Of a stretch of DNA of 64,000 nt, positions 198 to 52,910 are shown piece by piece; the stretch's first letter is position 1; every line of letters starts with the position of its first letter. The position numbers and the translations under genes are program-made. This stretch comes from Planctomycetota bacterium (GTDB taxonomy: Bacteria > Planctomycetota > UBA1135 > UBA2386), in the NCBI GenBank assembly GCA_020848735.1, contig JADLHO010000077.1, positions 1-64,000 of the forward strand. Direction: 5' to 3'. The notes under the pieces are model-generated. The model ran no database searches. It was not told the origin of the DNA and saw only the letters and a program-made list of their open reading frames with translations.

Positions 198-1057
198 CGT
201 GTCTCCGTTCAGGTTCGCCGCCTAACGTGAATTGGACAAATTTGCATAACACTCGGGAACGCAGCCAGCCGGTCTGCCTAACACAGCCACCTCCAGGCCG
301 CCACCATCCGCGAACTGGCCTGAGGAGCCGCATCGGGAGGTGCTCGGGGGCGACACCGACCACGTTAGACAGACCTGAATAACTCGTGGCCGGTTCGAGC
401 GCTGGACTGGGATGGGCCAGCCAGGGGGCTTCGCGACGCTTCCGAGGCAACGTCCTTGCGCCTCAGTTACCCGCCGAGGATCGCTGGACGCGCGCCGACC
501 GGGCCAGGGGGACCTGGGACGAGAGCATCCTGCCGCCAGGGGTGCCGAACGACACTCGTCGGTCGTCACCCTTCGCCGCGGACCCTCGTGCGCACGCGCG
601 GCGACTCTCTCAGCGGCGATTGCGCGACTCTGCTCTCGTACCCCGCAGCCCAAGGTCTTGGAGCGGGCGACTCCGCCGCTCCAATGCGGCGTCGGGCCAA
701 GCGTGTCGTTCACGGCAGCGGGAACGTCGCGCCGCGCGTCTTGTGACGCCACATTGAGTTCGAGCGGAGCAGGACTGAGGACGCTTCGGAAACTCGCAGC
801 GCTCAAGCACGGCTCGAGCACTCCTGCAGACCACGTCGATTCTGCCGCCGCGACTCGCGTCCCTCCCTCGATCGACACGCGAACCGCGCGCCGCGCATCC
901 TCGCACGGCACCATCGCGCTGCACCTCCAGGGGATCGGAACGGTTTCACCCATCGAGCCTTCGCCTCGCTCAGGCCGCGAACCCTAGCGATCTCCCCCAC
1001 ACCCCACAAGCACCAGACCCCGCTCGCAGCACCCCGCCCTCCCGCTACAAGACCGCA
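198..1057. other. About 860 bases without a convincing gene
   Basis: Apart from the palindrome at 271-375 and the core-like site at 220-226, nothing here can be supported as a gene. Open frames exist on both strands (for example 412-987 plus, 222-953 minus), but their products are rich in Arg, Ser and Ala, lack any domain, and overlap each other in all frames as random GC-rich sequence does. No tRNA or rRNA was recognised. The last 100 bases presumably hold the promoter of the aminopeptidase gene starting at 1058. Confidence 0.5.
271..375. repeat. Large imperfect palindrome resembling an integron attC site
   Basis: Outer arms at 271-282 and 364-375 are 12 bases each and complementary with one mismatch. 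They contain GCCTAAC (276-282) and GTTAGAC (364-370), which fit the RYYYAAC and GTTRRRY core patterns of attC sites, 95 bases apart from end to end. Nested arms lie inside: CACCTCC 288-294 with GGAGGTG 336-342, and AGGCC 295-299 with GGCCT 317-321. A third core-like GCCTAAC lies at 220-226, only 22 bases before the TIR start codon. Length and architecture fit attC, but no integrase gene and no second full site are visible, so this remains a candidate. Confidence 0.4.
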
Positions 1058-2947
1058 ATGCCCGCTCTCCGGTCCCAGCCCACCCTCGCCCTCCTCACCC
1101 TCCTCGCCGCCTGCGCCAGCCCTCCACCCGCACCCGATTCCCCCAACCCCGTGCCCGACGACCCCCACAGCCAATCCCGCCCGAACGAAACGCGCGTCAC
1201 GCACCTCGCGCTCGACCTGAGCGCCGACTTCGCCAGCCAGAGCCTCACCGGCACGGCGCAGCTCAGCCTGCAGCGCCTCGTCCCCGGTGCGCCGCTCGTC
1301 CTCGACACGGCGCCGTCGATCAGCGTGCTCTCGGTCCACGCGGCCGACGGCAGCCCCCGCCCCTTCCTCCTCGCCCCCGCCGACCCGATCCTCGGCTCCG
1401 CCCTCACCATCCCGCTCGAGCCGCAGGACCAGAGCGTCAGCGTCCGCTACTCCGTCCGCAGCGACGCCCGCGCGGTGCAATGGCTCGCCCCCGAGCAGAC
1501 CGCGTCCCGCCGCGGCCCGTTCCTCTTCACGCAGGGGCAGGCGATCCTCACGCGCTCCTGGATCCCGCTCCAGGACAGCCCCGGCGTGCGGATCACCTGG
1601 GAGGCGACGATCCGGCAGAACGACCATCCCGAGCTCGCGGCCGTGATGAGCGCGCAGAGCCGCAGCTCCACGGCGCCCGGCATCACGCAGTTCGCGATGC
1701 CGCATCCGGTGCCGAGCTACCTCATCGCCCTCGCGATCGGGGCGCTGGAACGGCGCGAGCTCTCGCCGCGCTGTGCGGTCTGGGCGGAGCCCGGGCTCGT
1801 CGAGCTGGCGGCACAGGAGTTCGAGGACGTGGAGCGGATGGTGAGCACCTGCGAGTCGCTCTACGGCCCCTATCGCTGGGGGCGTTACGACGTGCTGGTG
1901 CTGCCGCCCTCGTTCCCCTTCGGGGGGATGGAGAATCCCTGCCTGACCTTCGCGACGCCGACGATCCTCGCGGGCGACAAGTCGCTCGTGGCCTTGATCG
2001 CGCATGAGCTGGCGCACTCGTGGTCGGGCAATCTGGTGACGAATGCGACCTGGCGCGACTTCTGGCTGAACGAGGGCTTCACGGTCTACGTCGAGCAGCG
2101 GATCGTCGAGGCGATCTTCGGGGCGGAGCGCGCGCGGGCGGAGACGCAGAATGGGATCACGCAGCTCGAGAGCGAGCTCGCGAGCCTGCCCGAGGGGGAT
2201 CAGCGGCTGCATCTGGAGCTCAGCGGTCGCGACCCCGACGACGCGATGACCGCCGTCGCCTATGACAAGGGCGCGGCCTTCCTCCGCCGCCTCGAACTCG
2301 CCTTCGGCCGCGCGCGCTTCGACCGCTTCGTGCGCGCCTGGTTCGACGAGCACGCGTTCCGCAGCCTGACGACCGAGCAGTTCCTCGCCTTCCTGCAGAC
2401 GCGCCTGCTCGACTCCGACCGAAGCGCCGCCGCGGCGATCGACGTCGCCGACTGGGTCCACGGCAAGGGCCTGCCCGCCGACTGCCCGCGGCCGCGCTCG
2501 GAGCTGCTCGAGGCGAGCGACGCGGCGCGCGAGCGCTTCGTCGCCGGCGCCTCGGCGGCGAGCCTCGCGGCCGGCGCCTGGTCGACCCCGCAGTGGCTGC
2601 GCTTCCTGAACTCGCTGCCGGCGGCGCTGGACCGCGCGCGGCTCGTCGAGCTCGACGAGGTCTACGGCCTCACCCGCAGCGGCAACAGCGAGCTGCTCGC
2701 GGCCTGGCTCGAGCGGAACCTGGCGGCGGGCTACCTGGGCCTCCCCCCCGCGCTCGACGCCCGGCTCGGCGGCTTCCTCCGCGAGGTCGGCCGGCGGAAG
2801 TTCGTGAAGCCGCTCTTCGCCGCGCTGGCGAAGACGCCCGAGGGCCTCGTGCGCGCGAAGGCGATCTACGCCGAGGCACGGCAGCGCTACCACGCGGTGA
2901 CGCGCGGCACGATCGATCAACTGCTCGGCTGGTCAGCGGGCGGCTGA
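1058..2947 (+). CDS. M1-family zinc aminopeptidase, lipoprotein
   Basis: Predicted secreted aminopeptidase of the M1 (gluzincin) family, 629 residues, close in size and order to leukotriene A4 hydrolase-type members. A short signal sequence ends in a lipobox LAAC with Cys19, so the mature protein should be lipid-anchored on the periplasmic side. The exopeptidase motif GGMEN is at residues 289-293. The zinc site is HELAH at 316-320 with the third ligand Glu339 in NEGF. The C-terminal third is helical and fits the helical-repeat tail of the family. The start was chosen because it gives the signal peptide. It is followed after 55 bases by the molybdoenzyme genes on the same strand, with no evident functional link. 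The zinc site and GxMEN motif make the family assignment firm; the natural substrate is unknown. Confidence 0.88.
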   Translation: MPALRSQPTLALLTLLAACASPPPAPDSPNPVPDDPHSQSRPNETRVTHLALDLSADFASQSLTGTAQLSLQRLVPGAPLVLDTAPSISVLSVHAADGSPRPFLLAPADPILGSALTIPLEPQDQSVSVRYSVRSDARAVQWLAPEQTASRRGPFLFTQGQAILTRSWIPLQDSPGVRITWEATIRQNDHPELAAVMSAQSRSSTAPGITQFAMPHPVPSYLIALAIGALERRELSPRCAVWAEPGLVELAAQEFEDVERMVSTCESLYGPYRWGRYDVLVLPPSFPFGGMENPCLTFATPTILAGDKSLVALIAHELAHSWSGNLVTNATWRDFWLNEGFTVYVEQRIVEAIFGAERARAETQNGITQLESELASLPEGDQRLHLELSGRDPDDAMTAVAYDKGAAFLRRLELAFGRARFDRFVRAWFDEHAFRSLTTEQFLAFLQTRLLDSDRSAAAAIDVADWVHGKGLPADCPRPRSELLEASDAARERFVAGASAASLAAGAWSTPQWLRFLNSLPAALDRARLVELDEVYGLTRSGNSELLAAWLERNLAAGYLGLPPALDARLGGFLREVGRRKFVKPLFAALAKTPEGLVRAKAIYAEARQRYHAVTRGTIDQLLGWSAGG

Positions 2948-42733: not shown

Positions 42734-42769
42734 CGGCGCCACAGGCGCCGTCACCGCCCCTCAGGCGGT
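42734..42769. terminator. Two adjacent hairpins between convergent genes
   Basis: CGGCGCC-ACA-GGCGCCG (42734-42750) and ACCGCC-CCTCA-GGCGGT (42753-42769) are perfect inverted repeats directly after the protease gene and over the stop codon of the opposing gene. There is no T-run, so termination in either direction is likely but not certain. Confidence 0.4.
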
Positions 42770-43180
42770 CTGCGGGTGGCTGATCGCGGTCAGCCGCTCG
42801 TGGAACTTCTGCGCGAAGGCGGTCTCGAACTCGAAGCCGCCCGAGAAGTCGAGGCGCGAGTCCTCGGCGCGGCGGCTGAGCAGCCCCGCGTCGACGAGGT
42901 TGAAGACCATCTCGCCGAAGTCCTCGGTCCCCCGGAGCCCCCAGCGCTGGAACACGAGCGCGGCCATCGGGCCGAACTGCTCGGACGCGTAGTCGCGGAT
43001 CCCGTCCAGGAGCTCGCGCGCCGACACGTGCCGCTCCTCGCCGGACTTCCGGTCCTTGCCGAGGCGGACCATGGTGTTGTCCAGCGCGTCCAGGAGGAAG
43101 AGGTACGCATTGCGGGCGAAGCGCCGGTCGCGCCGCCGCAAGGAGAGGATTCGCTCCTCGATGCCGTCGAATGCCGCCAT
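42761..43180 (-). CDS. Minf_1886-family protein
   Basis: 139 residues, soluble. The sequence has the features of the Minf_1886 family: an N-terminal FARNAYLFLLDALDNTM, then HVSARELLDGIRDYASEQFGPMAALVFQRWGL and TEDFGEMVFNLVDAGLL. The function is unknown; the family is typical of Planctomycetota and other PVC bacteria, which supports the assignment of the host. The ATG at 43180 starts the conserved part; the frame extends ten codons further. A 200-base gap with no recognised feature separates it from holB. Confidence 0.75.
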   Translation of the reverse strand: MAAFDGIEERILSLRRRDRRFARNAYLFLLDALDNTMVRLGKDRKSGEERHVSARELLDGIRDYASEQFGPMAALVFQRWGLRGTEDFGEMVFNLVDAGLLSRRAEDSRLDFSGGFEFETAFAQKFHERLTAISHPQTA

Positions 43181-43381
43181 CGTCGTCTTCGGAGGACTGC
43201 GTCCGCGCACGCGGACCGGCCCATGGACGACCTATCGGACTCCGACGCACCGCCCTTGACCGCGCACGCGGTCGACGGCTCCGAGGCGTTGGCGGTGCCC
43301 TGACCGAGGCACCACGGCTCGAACCCGCCCGATTCCCGGCATCGCAATCCGCCGGTCGTCGCAAGGTCACGCCGAGAGCGG

Positions 43382-44338
43382 TCAGACCGCGAAGACGCCG
43401 ACGAGCCGCAGGAGCAGACCTTCGAGCGACTGCCCCACCGGGACACCGAGCTCGAGGTCCTGCTCCGCCGCGAAGACGGCGTCGAGCGCGGTCAGGCAGC
43501 GCTCGGCGTGCGGCGGAAGGTAGCCAGGCCCCTCGGCCTCGGCAAGCAGGAGCTGGACCCCGGCGCGGAGCCGCGCGCGGAACAGCATGAGGATGCCCTG
43601 CGCCCGTTCCTCCTGCTCGAGCTTGCTCCCGCCGGCCGAACCGAGCGCGACCGCGGTCGGGTGGACGGCGCTCGGCACGGGCGCGGCGAGGAAGCGGTCG
43701 ACGGCGTCGGCGAGGACGCGGAGCGAGGGGTCGAGCAGGCGCCGCGCGAGGCCGAGCGAGCCCGCGGCGCCGGCGATGGCGGCGGCGACCGCGCTCGGCG
43801 AACTGCCTTCCGGCAGGGGCGCCGTGCCGTCGTGCAGGGCCGCGCGCAGCGTCGCGTCGTCGAGGGGCCGGATCCGCAGGCGCGCGGCGCGCGAGCGCAC
43901 CGTCTCGAGCAGGCCCTCGGGGCGCCGCGCGACCAGCAGCAGGAAGGCGTCCTCGCCCGGCTCCTCCAGGGTCTTGAGCAGCGCGTTCTGCCCCTGCTCG
44001 TTCAGCCGATCGGCCGGGTCGACGATCGCGACGCGCGCCCCGCCCTCGAGGGGGCGACGCTGGAGCTCGTCGAGCAGCGCCCGGACCGCGTCGACGGGGA
44101 TCTCCTGCCGATCCTCGGGAACCGTGAGAAGGTGGAGATCCGGGTGGTTGCCGGACGCGACGCGGCGCGCGGCGCCGCGCTCGTCACCGCCGAGCAGGGC
44201 GGCCGCGAGCTCGCGCGCCGCGTGCGACTTGCCCGTGCCCGGCGCACCCTCGATCACGAGCGCGTGCGGCAGTCGGCGACGGGCCGCGCGACGGAGCCAG
44301 TCCTGCCAGTCCTCGCCCTGGCCGAGCAGCGCCCTCAC
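43382..44338 (-). CDS. holB: DNA polymerase III delta-prime subunit
   Basis: 318 residues. AAA+ clamp-loader subunit: PHALVIEGAPGTGKSHAAREL is a Walker A, VDAVRALLDELQRRPLEGG and RVAIVDPADRLNEQGQNALLKTLEEPGEDAFLLL are characteristic of HolB/DnaX, and the sensor RSRAARLRI follows. There is no zinc-binding cysteine quartet, which fits delta-prime of many lineages only loosely. The GTG start overlaps the tmk stop as GTGA. The gene order tmk-holB is common in bacteria. Confidence 0.88.
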   Translation of the reverse strand: MRALLGQGEDWQDWLRRAARRRLPHALVIEGAPGTGKSHAARELAAALLGGDERGAARRVASGNHPDLHLLTVPEDRQEIPVDAVRALLDELQRRPLEGGARVAIVDPADRLNEQGQNALLKTLEEPGEDAFLLLVARRPEGLLETVRSRAARLRIRPLDDATLRAALHDGTAPLPEGSSPSAVAAAIAGAAGSLGLARRLLDPSLRVLADAVDRFLAAPVPSAVHPTAVALGSAGGSKLEQEERAQGILMLFRARLRAGVQLLLAEAEGPGYLPPHAERCLTALDAVFAAEQDLELGVPVGQSLEGLLLRLVGVFAV

Positions 44339-45021
44339 GCCAGCCACTCCTCGCACGCCGCGCGCACCGCCGTGGCCACCGCCTCGATGGGCCGCGTGCC
44401 GTCGACGAGCGCGATGCGCGAGCGTCCCGCTGCATCGCCGTCGCGGCGGAGCAGGGCCGCGCACCAGGACTCCGCGGCCGCGAACGAGCGCATCGCCGCG
44501 CGCACCGCGGCGTGGTAGGCGGCCGGCCGCGCCTCGATGCGATCGCGCCGACCCTCGGCCTGCAGGCGGGCCGCGGCCACGTCTTCGCCGACGTCGAGCA
44601 CGACGACGAGGTCGGGCCGCGCCACCCCGAGCAGCGCCGTCGTGACCTCGCGCACGAGGTCCTCCGGCGCGCGGGCACCGAGCGGCGCACGGCACTGGTA
44701 CGCGACCGTCGAGAGGAAGCAGCGCTCGACCACGACGACGGCGCCGCGCCGCAGCGCCGGTTCGACCTCGCGCCGCAGCATCTCCCGCCGGGCGGCGGAG
44801 AAGGCCAAAGCCTCGCTGAGGACGTCGAGCTCGCCCGAGTTCGGGTCGAGCAGCACCGCGCGCAGCGCCTCGCCGAGCGGCGTCGAGCCGGGTTCGCGCA
44901 GGTGCAGCACCTCGCGGCCGGCTTCGGCCAGGTGCCGCGCGAGGCGTCGCGCCTGCGTCGTCTTGCCGCAGCCGTCCGCGCCTTCGATCACGACGTAGCC
45001 GCCGCCGCTCCGGTCCCTCAC
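44335..45021 (-). CDS. tmk: Thymidylate kinase
   Basis: 228 residues. P-loop VIEGADGCGKTTQARRLA near residue 10, the LREPGSTPLGEALR segment with the DR(E/H)-like catalytic region, ERCFLSTVAYQ, and the LID-type region with RLQAEGRRDRIE. It phosphorylates dTMP to dTDP. GTG start overlaps the stop of the DnaA-like gene as GTGA, and its stop overlaps holB. The Cys in ERCFLST stands where most family members have DRY, a mild deviation. Confidence 0.9.
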   Translation of the reverse strand: MRDRSGGGYVVIEGADGCGKTTQARRLARHLAEAGREVLHLREPGSTPLGEALRAVLLDPNSGELDVLSEALAFSAARREMLRREVEPALRRGAVVVVERCFLSTVAYQCRAPLGARAPEDLVREVTTALLGVARPDLVVVLDVGEDVAAARLQAEGRRDRIEARPAAYHAAVRAAMRSFAAAESWCAALLRRDGDAAGRSRIALVDGTRPIEAVATAVRAACEEWLA

Positions 45022-46220
45022 GTCACGGCCTCCACCAGCGCGGCGAGTTCGGCGTCGCCGCCGAGCTCCGCTTCGATCGACTGGATCATGTAGCTCACCG
45101 CGGCGCGGGTCTTGCCGAGGAAGCGACCGACCTCGGCGCGGCTCAGGCCCGCGCGCACGCAGACGAGGGCGAGCACCTTGCGCGCCTGGCTGACGCGACG
45201 CCGCTGCGTGTCCCCCATCAGGTCGGACACCGGCACGTCGAAGCGCTCGGCGACGGCCGCCCGCACGCGCTCGAAGGTGCCGCGCGGATCGATCAGCTCG
45301 AAGTAGCGCGCGTGCCGCGGATCGTGCGCACCCTGCCGTTCGATCGACCATGCGCGGCGCAGCTCGGGGAAGCCGCCCTGCACGTCCTGCGCGAGCTTGA
45401 GGATCGCGTCGGCGCGTCCGTTGCGCGACGGCGCGCCCTCGAGTGCACGCAGGTACGCGAGGCGCGCCTCGGGCCCCGGTGCTTCCAGCTGCGTGACGAA
45501 ACCGGCGAGCAACCAGGTGCGCAGGCGCTCGTCGAGCTCCCGGATCTCGCTCGGATGCCAGCGCGACGCGAGCAGCGTCGTCTTCCCCCGCGCATGGCGA
45601 TGCTCGAGCACGTGCGCGAGTTCGACCTGCACGCGGGTGTGCCCCGCGAGACGGTGCACCTCGTCGAGGACGAGCTGCGCGGCGTCCTCGAGCTCGACCC
45701 GCCATGCGTCCGTGCGCCGCTCGCGCCGCGCGGACGCGTGGGACGCGACGAGGTCCTGACCATCCCGCCATGCGACGCCGTGGCGCGACGCGCGCCACCA
45801 GCCGAGCAGGAAGGTCTTGCCGCAGCCGGCCGGGCCGTGGAAGAGGAACTGCGCCGAGGGCAGCGTGCGTCCCTCGTGCAGGGCCTGCAGCAGCAGCCAT
45901 GCCGTCTTGTTGCTGCGATCGATGATCGGCTGCAGCGGACCGACCTCGAGTTCGTCGGGTTGCAGCGCGTGCGGCGCCGCGGTCACCGACACGCCGATCG
46001 CGGTCCCGAACGCCGCGGAGATCTCGCGCTCGAGCAGCTCGCGGTAGAGCTGGGTCACGCGTTCGGCCACGAGGCGGTTCGGCGCCTCGACGTGCAGCAC
46101 CCCGCGCTCGAGACAGAGCGGACGGAGCGCGTCGAGCCAGGCCGCCCAGACGGCCTCGCCGACCGCCGCTCTCAGCGCGGGCTGGACGCTGCGCCAGGTC
46201 GAATCGAGGACGGCCTGCAT
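45018..46220 (-). CDS. DnaA-like AAA+ protein with altered DNA-binding signature
   Basis: 400 residues with the DnaA order. Residues 1-75 resemble domain I (AVWAAWLDALRPLCLERGVLHVEAPNRLVAE-type). The AAA+ core has Walker A GPAGCGKT (129-136) and Walker B LVLDEVHR (Asp186, Glu187). Residues about 315-390 fit domain IV (ERVRAAVAERFDVPVSDLMG and RRRVSQARKVLALVCVRAGL), but the DnaA signature DHTTVLHA is replaced by TRAAVSYM. The canonical IDD in Walker B is LDE. It lies between a TPR gene and tmk-holB, not beside dnaN. It could be a second initiator, a regulator derived from DnaA, or a divergent main DnaA. Confidence 0.7.
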   Translation of the reverse strand: MQAVLDSTWRSVQPALRAAVGEAVWAAWLDALRPLCLERGVLHVEAPNRLVAERVTQLYRELLEREISAAFGTAIGVSVTAAPHALQPDELEVGPLQPIIDRSNKTAWLLLQALHEGRTLPSAQFLFHGPAGCGKTFLLGWWRASRHGVAWRDGQDLVASHASARRERRTDAWRVELEDAAQLVLDEVHRLAGHTRVQVELAHVLEHRHARGKTTLLASRWHPSEIRELDERLRTWLLAGFVTQLEAPGPEARLAYLRALEGAPSRNGRADAILKLAQDVQGGFPELRRAWSIERQGAHDPRHARYFELIDPRGTFERVRAAVAERFDVPVSDLMGDTQRRRVSQARKVLALVCVRAGLSRAEVGRFLGKTRAAVSYMIQSIEAELGGDAELAALVEAVT

Positions 46221-46274: not shown

Positions 46275-49217
46275 TCAGCGCTTTCCGAGCAGTTCACGCG
46301 CGGTGTCCGCGGCCTCCGACTCGGGAGCCTCGCGGATCGCGCGTTCGAAGGCCGCACGCGCCGCGTCGCCCCGCTCGAGGCGCTGCAAGGTGCGGCCCAG
46401 CGCCACGCACGCCTCCGCCTGCTGCGTCGCGAAGGCCGCGGGATCGGGCGGCTCGGCCGCGGCACCCGGTGCGGGCCCGCGGTCGAGCGCCGCCGGGATC
46501 GCGAGCAGGGCCTCGTACTCGCGCACCGCGAGCACGTCGCTCCCGACCTCGACGTAGGCCGCGCCGAGCGCCCGGTGCACCGCCCGGTCGAAGGGATCGA
46601 TCGCCACGCACTGTTCGAGCAGCTCGATCTCGCGGCGACGATCACCGGCCTCCCGCGCGAAGCCGGCGAGTTCGAGCCGCGGCGCGTAGGCGCGCGCGGT
46701 GCGGCGGCAGAAGGTCTCGAGTTCCATCATGGCCTCGATCGTGCGCCCCGCGGCGCGGTGCAGGCGCGCGAGGCGCAGCTCGGGTGAGGTCTGCTGATCG
46801 GTGCACTCGGGCCAGCAGCGCTTCGCCGCGAGGTACTGCCGGATGGCGCCGTCGTCGTCGCCCTTCGCCTCGAGGGTCTCCGCGCAGCGGAGCCGCGAGT
46901 CGAAGTCGTCGAGGCCCGTCGCGAAGGCCTTCTCCCACGCGGCGAGCGCTTCGTCGGCGAGGCGGCGTCGCCGCAGGATCTCGGCGTGGATCAGCGTGCC
47001 GGCCGGATGGTCGGGCTCCCGGACGAAGATCTCCCGCAGGTTCATGCTCGCGTCGACGTCCACGCCGCGCTGCAGCGCCGACCAGGCGAGCGCGACGTGC
47101 GCGTCGAGGTCGGCGGGATCGCGCGCGACCCGCGCCCGCAGCGCGTCGACCGCCGCGTCGCCATAGCGCGGCACGATCCGCAGGCGCGCGGTCTTCGTCT
47201 CGTGGAGCCATGCGATGAACGCGCGGTCGATGGTCCGCGTGTCGACGCCGAAGGAGCGCGCGAAGGCCGCCTCCGCCGAGAGGTCCTCCCCGTAGGCGCG
47301 CAGGAGCTGGACGACCTTGTCGAACCCGTACTCCTTCGCCAGGAACTCGACGAGCAGACCACCCTTGTAGTAGCCGAAGAGGATGCGCGGGCCGCGGAAC
47401 ACGCGGTTGAAGAGCGCGATCGGCGCGACCTCGCCGTTGGCGAGCGCGTCGACGAGTTCCCGCTCCATGCCGCGCTCCCAGGACTTGTCGCGCTGGCGCT
47501 CCTCGTACACCGAAAAGCCCTCCGTCAACCAGCGCGGCACGCGGTGCCTGCTGAGCGCGAGCGTCAGCACGTGCGTGTACTCGTGCCAGAGCGTCGCGGT
47601 CCACATGAAGTCGTTCTGGCGCAGGTCGCGGTCGACCGGCGAGACGAACGTGATGAGCGGTCCGAAGCAGGCCCCCAGCGCGGTGAAGCCGCGGAACCCC
47701 ACCGTGCGCACGGAGAAGTCGGCCCAGGTGTGGAAGGCCTCGAGCCGCACGGGTCCGTCGGGGACCAGGCCGTACTTCGCATCGAGCGTCTGCTTCGCGG
47801 TGCGGGCCTCGGGGAGCAGGTAGCGCGTGAGCACCTGGGCGTCGTCGCGGTGCAGCAGGAAGCGGAAGCCGCCGTCGTCGACGGTCTCGTACTCCTCCGT
47901 GAGGAGGTCCTGCACCGCGATCATGTTGTTGCGCCACGGGTGCACGAAGCCGCGCCGCAGTTCGCGCGCCGCGACGAGGATCTCGCGCGCCTCCTCGCCG
48001 CGGGCCGAGTAGATCAACGCCTTCGCGAGGCCGTGCATCGCGTCGACGTCCTCCTTGTCGATCGCGAGCGCCGCGCGGTAGTGCGGCACCGCGTCGGCGA
48101 AGCGATAGAGCGCGACGAGCCGATCGCCGAGGGCGAGTTCGACGCCGCCCCAGTCCGCCGCGAGTTCGAGCGCGCGCGCGCGGAAGTCCTCGAACCCCCG
48201 CGTGTCCCCGCTGACCAGCGCGACCGCCGCCCGTTGCGCGAGGGTGCGGCGGTTGCGGGGATCGACGGCGAGCGCCGCGTCGAGACCGCGCACGCCGTCC
48301 TCGAAGCGCCGGTCGTCGATCCAGGCGACCGCGCGCGCGACGAGCGCCTGCACGCAGCGCGGATTGGCAGCGAGGGCGCGGTCGAGGAAGGTCTCGGTCT
48401 TCTGCGGATCGAGCAGATGGTTCTGGGAGCGGATCCGATGGAGCGCGACCAGCGCCTCGACGATCTCGCCGTTCCGCTCGAGCACGTCGAGCAGCGCCCG
48501 TTCGCCGCTCGCCGCCCCCGACCACTCGCCGTACACGTCGAAGCGCAGCAACCCGTAGAGCGTGCGCGGCAGCCACTCGTCGGGTGCCGCGCGGACCGCC
48601 TCGACGAGCAGGCCCGAGGCCTCCTCGACGTTCTGCCGCCCCCCGAGCCGCATGCGCGCGCGGGCGCGCCAGGTCAGCGCCTCGGCGTCGCCCCCGCGAC
48701 CTTCGCTCGCGGCCCGCAGAGCGGCGAGACCGTCGTCGCGACGGCCGGTCTCGAGCAGGAGTTCGCCGAGGCGGACACGCGCCTGCGTGTCGTCGGCGCG
48801 GATCGCGAGCAGCGCGCGCAGGCCCTGCTCCGCGGCCTCGTAGCCGCCAGTCTCGAGCTCGGCCTCGATCGCGAGCAGCGCGTACTCGCGGCGCGCGCGC
48901 TCGGCCGCCGGAAGGGCCGCGACGCCGTCCTTCACCGCGCGGTACTCGCCGCCGCGCAGCGCGACGCGCAGCACGCCGAGCCGCGCCGCGAACACCACCT
49001 CGGCAGGGGTCTCGTCGGGCTTGCCCTTCGTCTCCTCCCACTCGTCGAGCAGCTCCTGCCAGAGGCTCTCGGCCTTGCGCAGCTCGCCGCGCTGGAAGAA
49101 GCGCGCGGCCGCGACGAGGTCTTCGGCGTAGGGATCGTCCTGGGCGGGAACCGCGACCGCGGGCACGCCCACGGCGAGGACGAGCAGGATGGACAGCCAG
49201 CAGGTGCTTCGGCTCAT
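46275..49217 (-). CDS. Secreted TPR protein with gluzincin-type peptidase domain
   Basis: 980 residues. A signal peptide (CWLSILLVLAVGVPAVAVPAQ) gives a periplasmic or secreted protein. TPR-like helical repeats fill residues about 30-440 and 690-980. Between them lies a metalloprotease domain with HEYTH at 545-549 and the third ligand Glu566 in WLTEGFSVYEE, the pattern of the peptidase MA-like family. The mix of TPR and gluzincin occurs in PVC bacteria, but the substrate is unknown. It lies 41 bases after the NtrC gene and 54 bases before the DnaA-like gene on the same strand. Confidence 0.78.
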   Translation of the reverse strand: MSRSTCWLSILLVLAVGVPAVAVPAQDDPYAEDLVAAARFFQRGELRKAESLWQELLDEWEETKGKPDETPAEVVFAARLGVLRVALRGGEYRAVKDGVAALPAAERARREYALLAIEAELETGGYEAAEQGLRALLAIRADDTQARVRLGELLLETGRRDDGLAALRAASEGRGGDAEALTWRARARMRLGGRQNVEEASGLLVEAVRAAPDEWLPRTLYGLLRFDVYGEWSGAASGERALLDVLERNGEIVEALVALHRIRSQNHLLDPQKTETFLDRALAANPRCVQALVARAVAWIDDRRFEDGVRGLDAALAVDPRNRRTLAQRAAVALVSGDTRGFEDFRARALELAADWGGVELALGDRLVALYRFADAVPHYRAALAIDKEDVDAMHGLAKALIYSARGEEAREILVAARELRRGFVHPWRNNMIAVQDLLTEEYETVDDGGFRFLLHRDDAQVLTRYLLPEARTAKQTLDAKYGLVPDGPVRLEAFHTWADFSVRTVGFRGFTALGACFGPLITFVSPVDRDLRQNDFMWTATLWHEYTHVLTLALSRHRVPRWLTEGFSVYEERQRDKSWERGMERELVDALANGEVAPIALFNRVFRGPRILFGYYKGGLLVEFLAKEYGFDKVVQLLRAYGEDLSAEAAFARSFGVDTRTIDRAFIAWLHETKTARLRIVPRYGDAAVDALRARVARDPADLDAHVALAWSALQRGVDVDASMNLREIFVREPDHPAGTLIHAEILRRRRLADEALAAWEKAFATGLDDFDSRLRCAETLEAKGDDDGAIRQYLAAKRCWPECTDQQTSPELRLARLHRAAGRTIEAMMELETFCRRTARAYAPRLELAGFAREAGDRRREIELLEQCVAIDPFDRAVHRALGAAYVEVGSDVLAVREYEALLAIPAALDRGPAPGAAAEPPDPAAFATQQAEACVALGRTLQRLERGDAARAAFERAIREAPESEAADTARELLGKR

Positions 49218-51588: not shown

Positions 51589-51767
51589 GGATCCGTCACC
51601 GCGGTTCGCGGCCGGGCACCGTAGGCAGCCCCGCGGAGCGAGTCAAACGCGGGCCCCGCTCCGCGCAATTCTCCTCCGAAGCGCATCCAGCCCTTTGCGC
51701 GCGGCCGGCTCCGCCGCGATCCTTCGCGTCCCCGCTGCGCTCCTCCGAGCGCGGCCGGCCGAGAACG

Positions 51768-52910
51768 ATGAGTCTCCGTCGCATCGGCGTGCCCGCGCTG
51801 TCCGGGTCGTCCCCCTCGGCGGCGAACGCCGCGAGTCACGCGGCGCTCGTCGAGGAGGCCGTGCGCGCGATCCGCGCGGGGCAGATCGTCGTGCTCCCCA
51901 CCGAGACCGTCTACGGCATCGCCGCGGACCCCGGCTGCGAGACCTCGATCGCGGCCGTGCGCGCGTGGAAGGGCCGGCCGGACGAGCAGCGCTTCACGCA
52001 TCATCTCGGCGACGCCCGCGACGTCGAACGCTTCGTCCCGCAGGTTCCGCCGCGGGTGCGCAAGCTGCTCGATCGGTACTGGCCCGGTCCGTTGACCGTC
52101 GTGCTCCCGACCCACGACGGCACCAGCGTCGGCCTGCGCCTCCCCGCGCACGCCTTCGCGCGCGCCGTCGCCCGCGCCCTCGGCGGCAGCGTGTACCTCA
52201 CCAGCGTCAACGCGAGCGGTGAGCCGCCCTTCGTCGGTCCCGACGAGATCGTCGCCGCGGCCGGCGAGCGGATCGATCTGCTCTTCGACGGCGGCGCTCC
52301 GCCCCTGCGCCAAGCCTCGACCGTCGTGCGTTGGCGCGCGCCCGCGGCGCTCGATGCCCTCGGTGCCGCGGCCGAGGCCTTCGGCGAACTCGAGGTCCTG
52401 CGCGAAGGCGTCCTGAGCGCGGCGGAGATCGAGTCCCTCACCGCGCGGACCTGGCTCTTCGTCTGCACGGGCAACACCTGTCGCTCGCCGATGGCGGAGG
52501 CGATCGCGCGGCGCGAGGCGGCGCGGCGCCTCGGCACGACGGAGCAGCGCGTCCGCGCGCACGGCCTGGCCTTCGCCAGCGCGGGGATCACCGCGCGCGC
52601 CGGACTCGCCGCCAGCGACGGCAGCCGCGCCGCGCTGCGCGAGATCGGTCTCTCGCTCGATGGCCATCGCAGCAGTCCGCTCACGCCCGAGCTCCTGCGC
52701 TCCGCGGAGCGCATCTTCTGTCTCGGCGCCTCGCACCTCGTCGCCGTCTGCGCCCTCGCACCCGACGTGGCCGATCGCGCCGAACTGCTCGATCCGCAGG
52801 GCGGCGGCATCCCGGACCCCTATGGGCTGGACCTCGACACCTATCGCCGCACGCGCGAGGCGATCGAGTTCGCCGTCCAGGCGCGCCTCGACGAGATCCT
52901 CCCGCGCTAG
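51768..52910 (+). CDS. YrdC/Sua5-like domain fused to low-molecular-weight tyrosine phosphatase
   Basis: 380 residues. The N-terminal half (30-200) is a threonylcarbamoyl-AMP synthase domain: VLPTETVYGIAADPG and KLLDRYWPGPLTVVLP, then TSVNASGEPPF. That part makes the precursor of the tRNA modification t6A. The C-terminal half (from about 228) is a low-molecular-weight phosphatase with the active loop CTGNTCRS (Cys233 to Arg239) and DPYG for the catalytic Asp. Both halves look active. The fusion is known in a few bacterial lineages. Its stop codon lies in a CTAG that is also the stop of lpxD on the other strand. Confidence 0.88.
   Translation: MSLRRIGVPALSGSSPSAANAASHAALVEEAVRAIRAGQIVVLPTETVYGIAADPGCETSIAAVRAWKGRPDEQRFTHHLGDARDVERFVPQVPPRVRKLLDRYWPGPLTVVLPTHDGTSVGLRLPAHAFARAVARALGGSVYLTSVNASGEPPFVGPDEIVAAAGERIDLLFDGGAPPLRQASTVVRWRAPAALDALGAAAEAFGELEVLREGVLSAAEIESLTARTWLFVCTGNTCRSPMAEAIARREAARRLGTTEQRVRAHGLAFASAGITARAGLAASDGSRAALREIGLSLDGHRSSPLTPELLRSAERIFCLGASHLVAVCALAPDVADRAELLDPQGGGIPDPYGLDLDTYRRTREAIEFAVQARLDEILPR

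Follow-up and report, generated by a model that had tools for sequence, protein, structure and literature searches.

The DnaAL proteins described here form a conserved family of DnaA paralogues in which the residues of DNA recognition and of the ATP switch have been rewritten. Most bacteria encode a single DnaA, and the helix with which it reads DNA counts among the best-conserved elements of their replication. Our case study is the copy encoded in the window, that is, the whole stretch of 64,000 nucleotides that was analysed; we consider, with a probability of about 0.5, that this copy is a neofunctionalised paralogue with a regulatory role rather than that of chromosomal initiator. Such a stable paralogue, with helix and switch residues uniformly replaced, amounts to a natural experiment on which parts of DnaA serve initiation and which serve regulation; its overlap with tmk would also tie replication control to nucleotide supply in a directly testable way, in a phylum whose members are mostly uncultured and whose cell biology is unusual.

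Gene, domains and neighbourhood

The domain order of a DnaA, already pointed out in a preliminary description of the locus, is borne out by Pfam, as the matches to Bac_DnaA (2.8e-12), DnaA_N (9.9e-9) and Bac_DnaA_C (1.4e-8) each exceed their curated cut-offs. Across the 35 members of our set A2, Bac_DnaA and Bac_DnaA_C were matched in all 35 and DnaA_N in 28, a figure equal to the number of rows from the host family (f1). DnaAL is, however, no orthodox DnaA, since it scores only 110 bits against the NCBIfam DnaA equivalog model TIGR00362, the cut-off of which is 344 (343.9). The AlphaFold model, built with 28 natural homologues, has a mean pLDDT of 85.7 and a pTM of 0.53, the latter leaving the orientation of the domains unsure; its top PDB fold matches are the DnaA structures 8btg, 1l8q and 3r8f, the first of which is an origin-opening complex. 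The gene is under purifying selection (dN/dS 0.14-0.33 by the Nei-Gojobori method, with dS of 0.3-1.1) and contains no internal stops, which excludes a decaying pseudogene. DnaAL is a fast-evolving second copy that exists besides a normal DnaA. A phage origin was also rejected, as a PHROG search with DnaAL gave no match and the gene block is conserved.

Table 1. Features of the DnaAL locus in the window, in order of transcription (positions of the window; aa, residues of DnaAL).
Feature	Position	Strand	Evidence
TPR/peptidase-MA protein, upstream of DnaAL, gap 54 bp	46275..49205	(-)	PF13485 4.2e-9, synteny
DnaA paralogue (DnaAL), 400 aa, ATG start	45018..46220	(-)	Pfam, AlphaFold, fold matches
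Parts of DnaAL: domain I ~aa 1-81, short linker, AAA+ domain III ~98-300, HTH domain IV ~315-400			
Walker A GPAGCGKTF, intact, aa 129-137	45810..45836	(-)	K135 invariant 35/35
Walker B LDEVH, intact D-E type, aa 185-189	45654..45668	(-)	E187 35/35, D186 34/35
Sensor 1 SRWHP (D->R, aa 220) and arginine-finger position W236, aa 219-236	45513..45566	(-)	column counts
Recognition-helix region GKTRAAVSYM, aa 369-378	45087..45116	(-)	column counts, alignment with canonical DnaA
tmk (thymidylate kinase)	44335..45021	(-)	PF02223 1.8e-38
holB (DNA polymerase III delta' subunit), start codon not fixed	43382..44320	(-)	PF13177 1.6e-33
orf149, 149 aa, conserved	42761..43210	(-)	after holB in nearly all loci

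Nearly all loci, down to those of families f2, f6 and f7, keep DnaAL, tmk, holB and orf149 in this order; a Pfam scan of orf149 returned no match. The stop codon of DnaAL and the start of tmk overlap by 4 bp, the usual sign of translational coupling, in the window, in most f1 loci in which tmk was located, and in several f6 loci. On the other side, the TPR peptidase is kept upstream in f1, f2, f4 and f7, and the intergenic space 5' of DnaAL measures 15-156 bp across loci. Upstream of the TPR peptidase, a histidine kinase and an NtrC-type regulator are detected in only a fraction of the f1 loci and in no f6 locus, so that these two-component genes are outside the conserved core. Thus, of the operon initially proposed, the coupling with tmk and holB proves deeply conserved, but the two-component genes belong to part of f1 only, and such patchy conservation gives no comparative support to the suggestion of a regulator linking replication to signalling. 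Operon neighbours, moreover, show co-expression and not shared function. Elsewhere in the window, a gene at 51615-52907 (+) encodes a fusion of Sua5/YrdC with a low-molecular-weight phosphotyrosine phosphatase (PF01300 and PF01451).

Recognition helix and ATPase residues

Residue columns were counted over 35 sequences, namely 28 complete f1 copies and seven f6 copies. The change of the domain IV signature to TRAAVSYM, reported from the window alone, is confirmed by alignment: GKTRAAVSYM stands in place of the canonical G-R-D-H-T-T-V-L-H/Y-A, with TRAAVSYM facing DHTTVLYA of the host's own canonical DnaA. The replacement of DHTTVLH by TRA[A/S][V/I]xY holds in 28/28 complete f1 copies, with T371, R372, A373 and Y377 invariant, position 374 occupied by Ala in 27 of the 28 and position 376 by Ser in as many; the helix thus starts T-R-A-A/S-V/I-S/H-Y in f1 and mostly S-A-S-S-V-x-Y in f6, for D-H-T-T-V-L-H in E. 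coli. In the E. coli protein, residues 434-451 read TnCACA in the major groove and Arg399 reads TTA in the minor groove, and the T435M and R399A variants are defective in box binding (PMC5742627). The equivalent of Arg399 is invariant in DnaAL (35/35).

On the ATPase side, the LDE of Walker B had been singled out as a departure from IDD; the segment does read VLDEVHR, but this is an intact, ordinary AAA+ motif of the D-E type and no lesion. More telling, and not mentioned before, are the changes that affect the two sensors and the arginine finger. The sensor 1 Asp is replaced by Arg in all 35 f1 and f6 copies, and, within f1, this R220 is as invariant as D186 and E187 of Walker B. The sensor 2 Arg has become Pro in 27 of 28 f1 copies (P285 in the window protein) and Gly or Ala in six of seven f6 copies. 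As for the arginine-finger position, it varies in f1 between S, W, R, M, T, Q and L, with Arg in 6/28 and Trp in the window protein; f6 keeps the finger (R in 7/7), so that loss of filament formation is not common to the whole DnaAL group. Residues this uniform over 28 f1 copies mean that the helix and ATPase changes are neither noise nor sequencing error. In E. coli DnaA, Arg285, to which the finger position corresponds, is required for ATP-dependent cooperative assembly, and Arg334, the counterpart of the sensor 2 position, for ATP hydrolysis in datA complexes (PMC5742627); DnaA homologues in which the arginine finger is replaced are defective in origin strand separation (PMC8287927). Judging from this residue pattern, the window protein should keep nucleotide binding, as well as DNA binding with a new specificity, without forming a standard filament.

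Canonical DnaA of the host, distribution and origin

The host genome (G000) is a metagenome-assembled genome of an uncultured member of the Planctomycetota, of 6.4 Mb in 277 contigs, 89% complete and 7% contaminated. An orthodox DnaA with the signature GDRDHTTVLYA (RDHTTVLYA) is encoded on its contig C205; DnaAL is therefore a paralogue, and the refuting possibility raised at the outset, a sole DnaA with a lineage-wide signature, is excluded. The host dnaN and dciA are found on contig C79, apart from dnaA; the three genes stand together in the relative G010. Beyond its signature, the host canonical DnaA (locus L135, 8383-10521, (-)) has a very long domain II linker with tandem RGPVD repeats. 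With Pfam, DciA went undetected in the f6 genomes G038, G042, G046, G049, G052, G055 and G058; it is present in almost every other family of the order.

Exact canonical boxes (TTATNCACA) were found in none of the 18 canonical-dnaA loci scanned, that of the host included, and a whole-genome search of the host revealed no spaced pair of canonical DnaA boxes (TTATNCACA). Nor was there any clustered motif that could be attributed to DnaAL; the repeats around its gene resemble GC-rich, codon-biased similarities. The idea of a different box is thus retained in part: DnaAL has a domain IV unlike that of any canonical DnaA examined within the order, and unlike that of the second DnaAs inspected in the rest of the phylum, which makes a changed target site likely, but the search yielded no changed box.

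In order to map the distribution of DnaAL, we used an alignment-based search of 154 class members (E<=1e-30). It is present in 31 of the 34 f1 genomes, the three misses being bins that are 65-85% complete; together with a full-length copy, 79% identical, in the same genus, this presence excludes a sequencing or annotation artefact. At the same threshold, eight f6 genomes and one f2 genome also have it, and no copy was detected outside f1, f6 and f2 among the 154 class members. The same slot is occupied in four other families by relatives with other signatures or with domain I lost; in f4 and f7, for example, a shorter relative without domain I sits at the same locus position. In f8, tmk directly follows the TPR peptidase, without a DnaA-like gene in between (most clearly in L132, L133 and L134), and none of the f8 or f5 loci showed a DnaA-like ORF; f3, a single fragmented genome, was left out of the distribution verdict. 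In our tree, the copies of f1, f6, f2, f4 and f7 lie on one side of a branch, apart from canonical DnaA, with an SH-aLRT support of 99, or 96 once the longest rows are removed. The tree carries a long-branch warning, and independent duplications joined by long-branch attraction had to be envisaged; the common location of the copies, between the TPR peptidase and tmk, argues against this explanation. Branch and position together argue for a single origin of the group followed by losses.

DnaA duplication itself is common in Planctomycetota: at least two Bac_DnaA_C matches were obtained in about 108 of 149 genomes drawn across the phylum (about 70%, the table being counted by hand). Family f49 reaches up to six DnaA C-terminal domains, and its genome G145 has two nearly identical DnaA copies (L159 and L160). 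In ten genomes read closely, the second copies usually have NHST, NHTT, KHTT or NHAT/HHAT for DHTT/DHST, and in 12 genomes with two or more DnaAs that were examined no DnaA-like gene was found to adjoin tmk. In f32 (L153, L155 and L168, from complete or near-complete genomes), a short DnaA of 336-344 aa has E-D for D-D in Walker B and an NHSTV helix; that of L153, the one scanned, lacks a DnaA_N match. The short gene begins at base 1 of the record in L153 and L155, and a longer DnaA is found elsewhere, so position-based annotation may designate the wrong initiator in f32; more generally, "find the dnaA" annotation may choose the wrong gene in Planctomycetota. Finally, host contig C107 (L189) encodes, at 711-2609 (+), a protein of 633 aa with two tandem Bac_DnaA AAA+ domains (5e-100) and no HTH match, flanked by genes for a Ras/Arf-like GTPase and a DUF4388 protein; the contig is 3.2 kb long and possibly a contamination, given that the bin is 7% contaminated, and a search of six other f1 genomes turned up no similar tandem protein.

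Proposed role and comparison with known systems

As the helix and the ATP-switch residues are alike replaced family-wide, in a gene that overlaps tmk, DnaAL is probably not an initiator but a regulator linked to replication, although the choice between regulator and another accessory role is itself deduced from sequence. DnaAL would bind ATP or ADP without building the ATP-gated head-to-tail DnaA filament, and would bind a DNA site of its own, distinct from the canonical DnaA box. Its domain I may contact the replication machinery, through either canonical DnaA or the replicative helicase. Presumably co-expressed with tmk and holB, DnaAL could then tune initiation frequency, or the transcription of replication genes, in step with the expression of dTMP kinase and clamp loader. 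A bolder version, which we regard as unlikely, makes of DnaAL a widespread, previously undescribed, tmk-coupled second DNA-recognition system of one planctomycete lineage, with a new box, which would gate replication by dTTP and replisome supply and, in f6, might even replace DciA-dependent helicase loading.

Other roles have to be weighed against that of a regulator. It seems improbable to us that DnaAL is a helicase recruitment or loading factor, akin to DnaC/DnaI or to a DciA adaptor, with domain I binding the helicase and the AAA+ domain with its modified sensors delivering it. DciA is the usual helicase loader, and it is encoded in nearly every f1 genome, including that of the window; f1 thus needs no further loader, which weakens this reading for the window, and the HTH, strongly conserved in f1, would be needless for a loader. 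The idea draws on the presence of DnaI among the AAA+ relatives of DnaAL (4m4w, E 2.6e-6), on the binding of DnaB by domain I of E. coli DnaA (PMC5742627) and on f6 itself, where DnaAL keeps its finger: DciA (PF05258) was found in 0/7 of its genomes, and an order-specific DciA profile gave weak partial matches in 3/8. We give less credence to a pure transcription factor, which would control the tmk/holB operon or nucleotide metabolism genes apart from initiation. A conserved HTH with lost oligomerisation residues would suit it, and a study of regulators in PVC bacteria counts DnaA paralogues as transcription factors (PMC4989314); domain I is nevertheless kept in f1, where a plain repressor would not need it, and the 15-156 bp 5' of DnaAL leave little promoter there.

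Less credible again is an inactivator of the Hda/RIDA type, docking on DnaA or on the clamp and triggering hydrolysis of DnaA-bound ATP. Hda works via its arginine finger, a residue that is not conserved in f1 DnaAL; inspection by eye showed no obvious clamp-binding motif at the N-terminus, and Hda has no HTH, whereas in DnaAL the recognition helix belongs to the most uniform stretches. What speaks for such an inactivator is the proximity of the clamp-loader gene holB, which fits a replisome link, the presence of Hda (3bos) among the PDB fold matches, and an NCBIfam Hda match at 1.3e-10, below the cut-off. Last in our ranking comes a second bona fide initiator, serving an alternative origin or a second replicon with its own box: the full I-III-IV domain order, the intact Walker A and B motifs and the changed recognition helix would all be expected of it, but the sensors are replaced, the finger is unconserved in f1, PHROG matches are lacking and the gene sits in a conserved tmk-holB block.

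The reading of DnaAL as a regulator can be set beside known systems. With canonical DnaA (reference models TIGR00362 and PF11638+PF00308+PF08299), it shares the succession of domains I, III and IV, the fold, Walker A and B and the minor-groove Arg equivalent to R399; it differs by TRAAVSY for DHTTVLH, sensor 1 D->R, sensor 2 R->P, an unconserved finger and a domain II that is almost absent. Hda is likewise a DnaA-derived AAA+ protein existing beside DnaA, but it has neither domain I nor domain IV, and DnaAL has both; against the Hda model TIGR03420, DnaAL reaches 41.2 bits for a cut-off of 194.8, and its HTH is present. The DnaC/DnaI loaders have a helicase-binding N-terminus, whereas that of DnaAL is a DnaA_N domain and its AAA+ part alone aligns with DnaI. 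Among PVC bacteria with more than one DnaA, the paralogues DnaA1 and DnaA3 of Chlamydiae (Waddlia) were counted as transcription factors, DnaA3 being described as confined to Chlamydiae (PMC4989314); we liken them to DnaAL by description and not by sequence. No earlier description of a planctomycete DnaA paralogue was found in the open-access papers searched. The closest parallel is offered by the second DnaAs of the phylum (RNHSTV, KNHTTV, KKHTTV, KNHATV), which are also paralogues beside a DHTT/DHST-type DnaA with the D433 position altered. Unlike DnaAL, these keep H434, S/T/A at 435, the sensor 2 Arg and mostly the arginine finger, and they group apart from it in the tree; DnaAL is therefore special by the degree and direction of its change and by its fixed position next to tmk.
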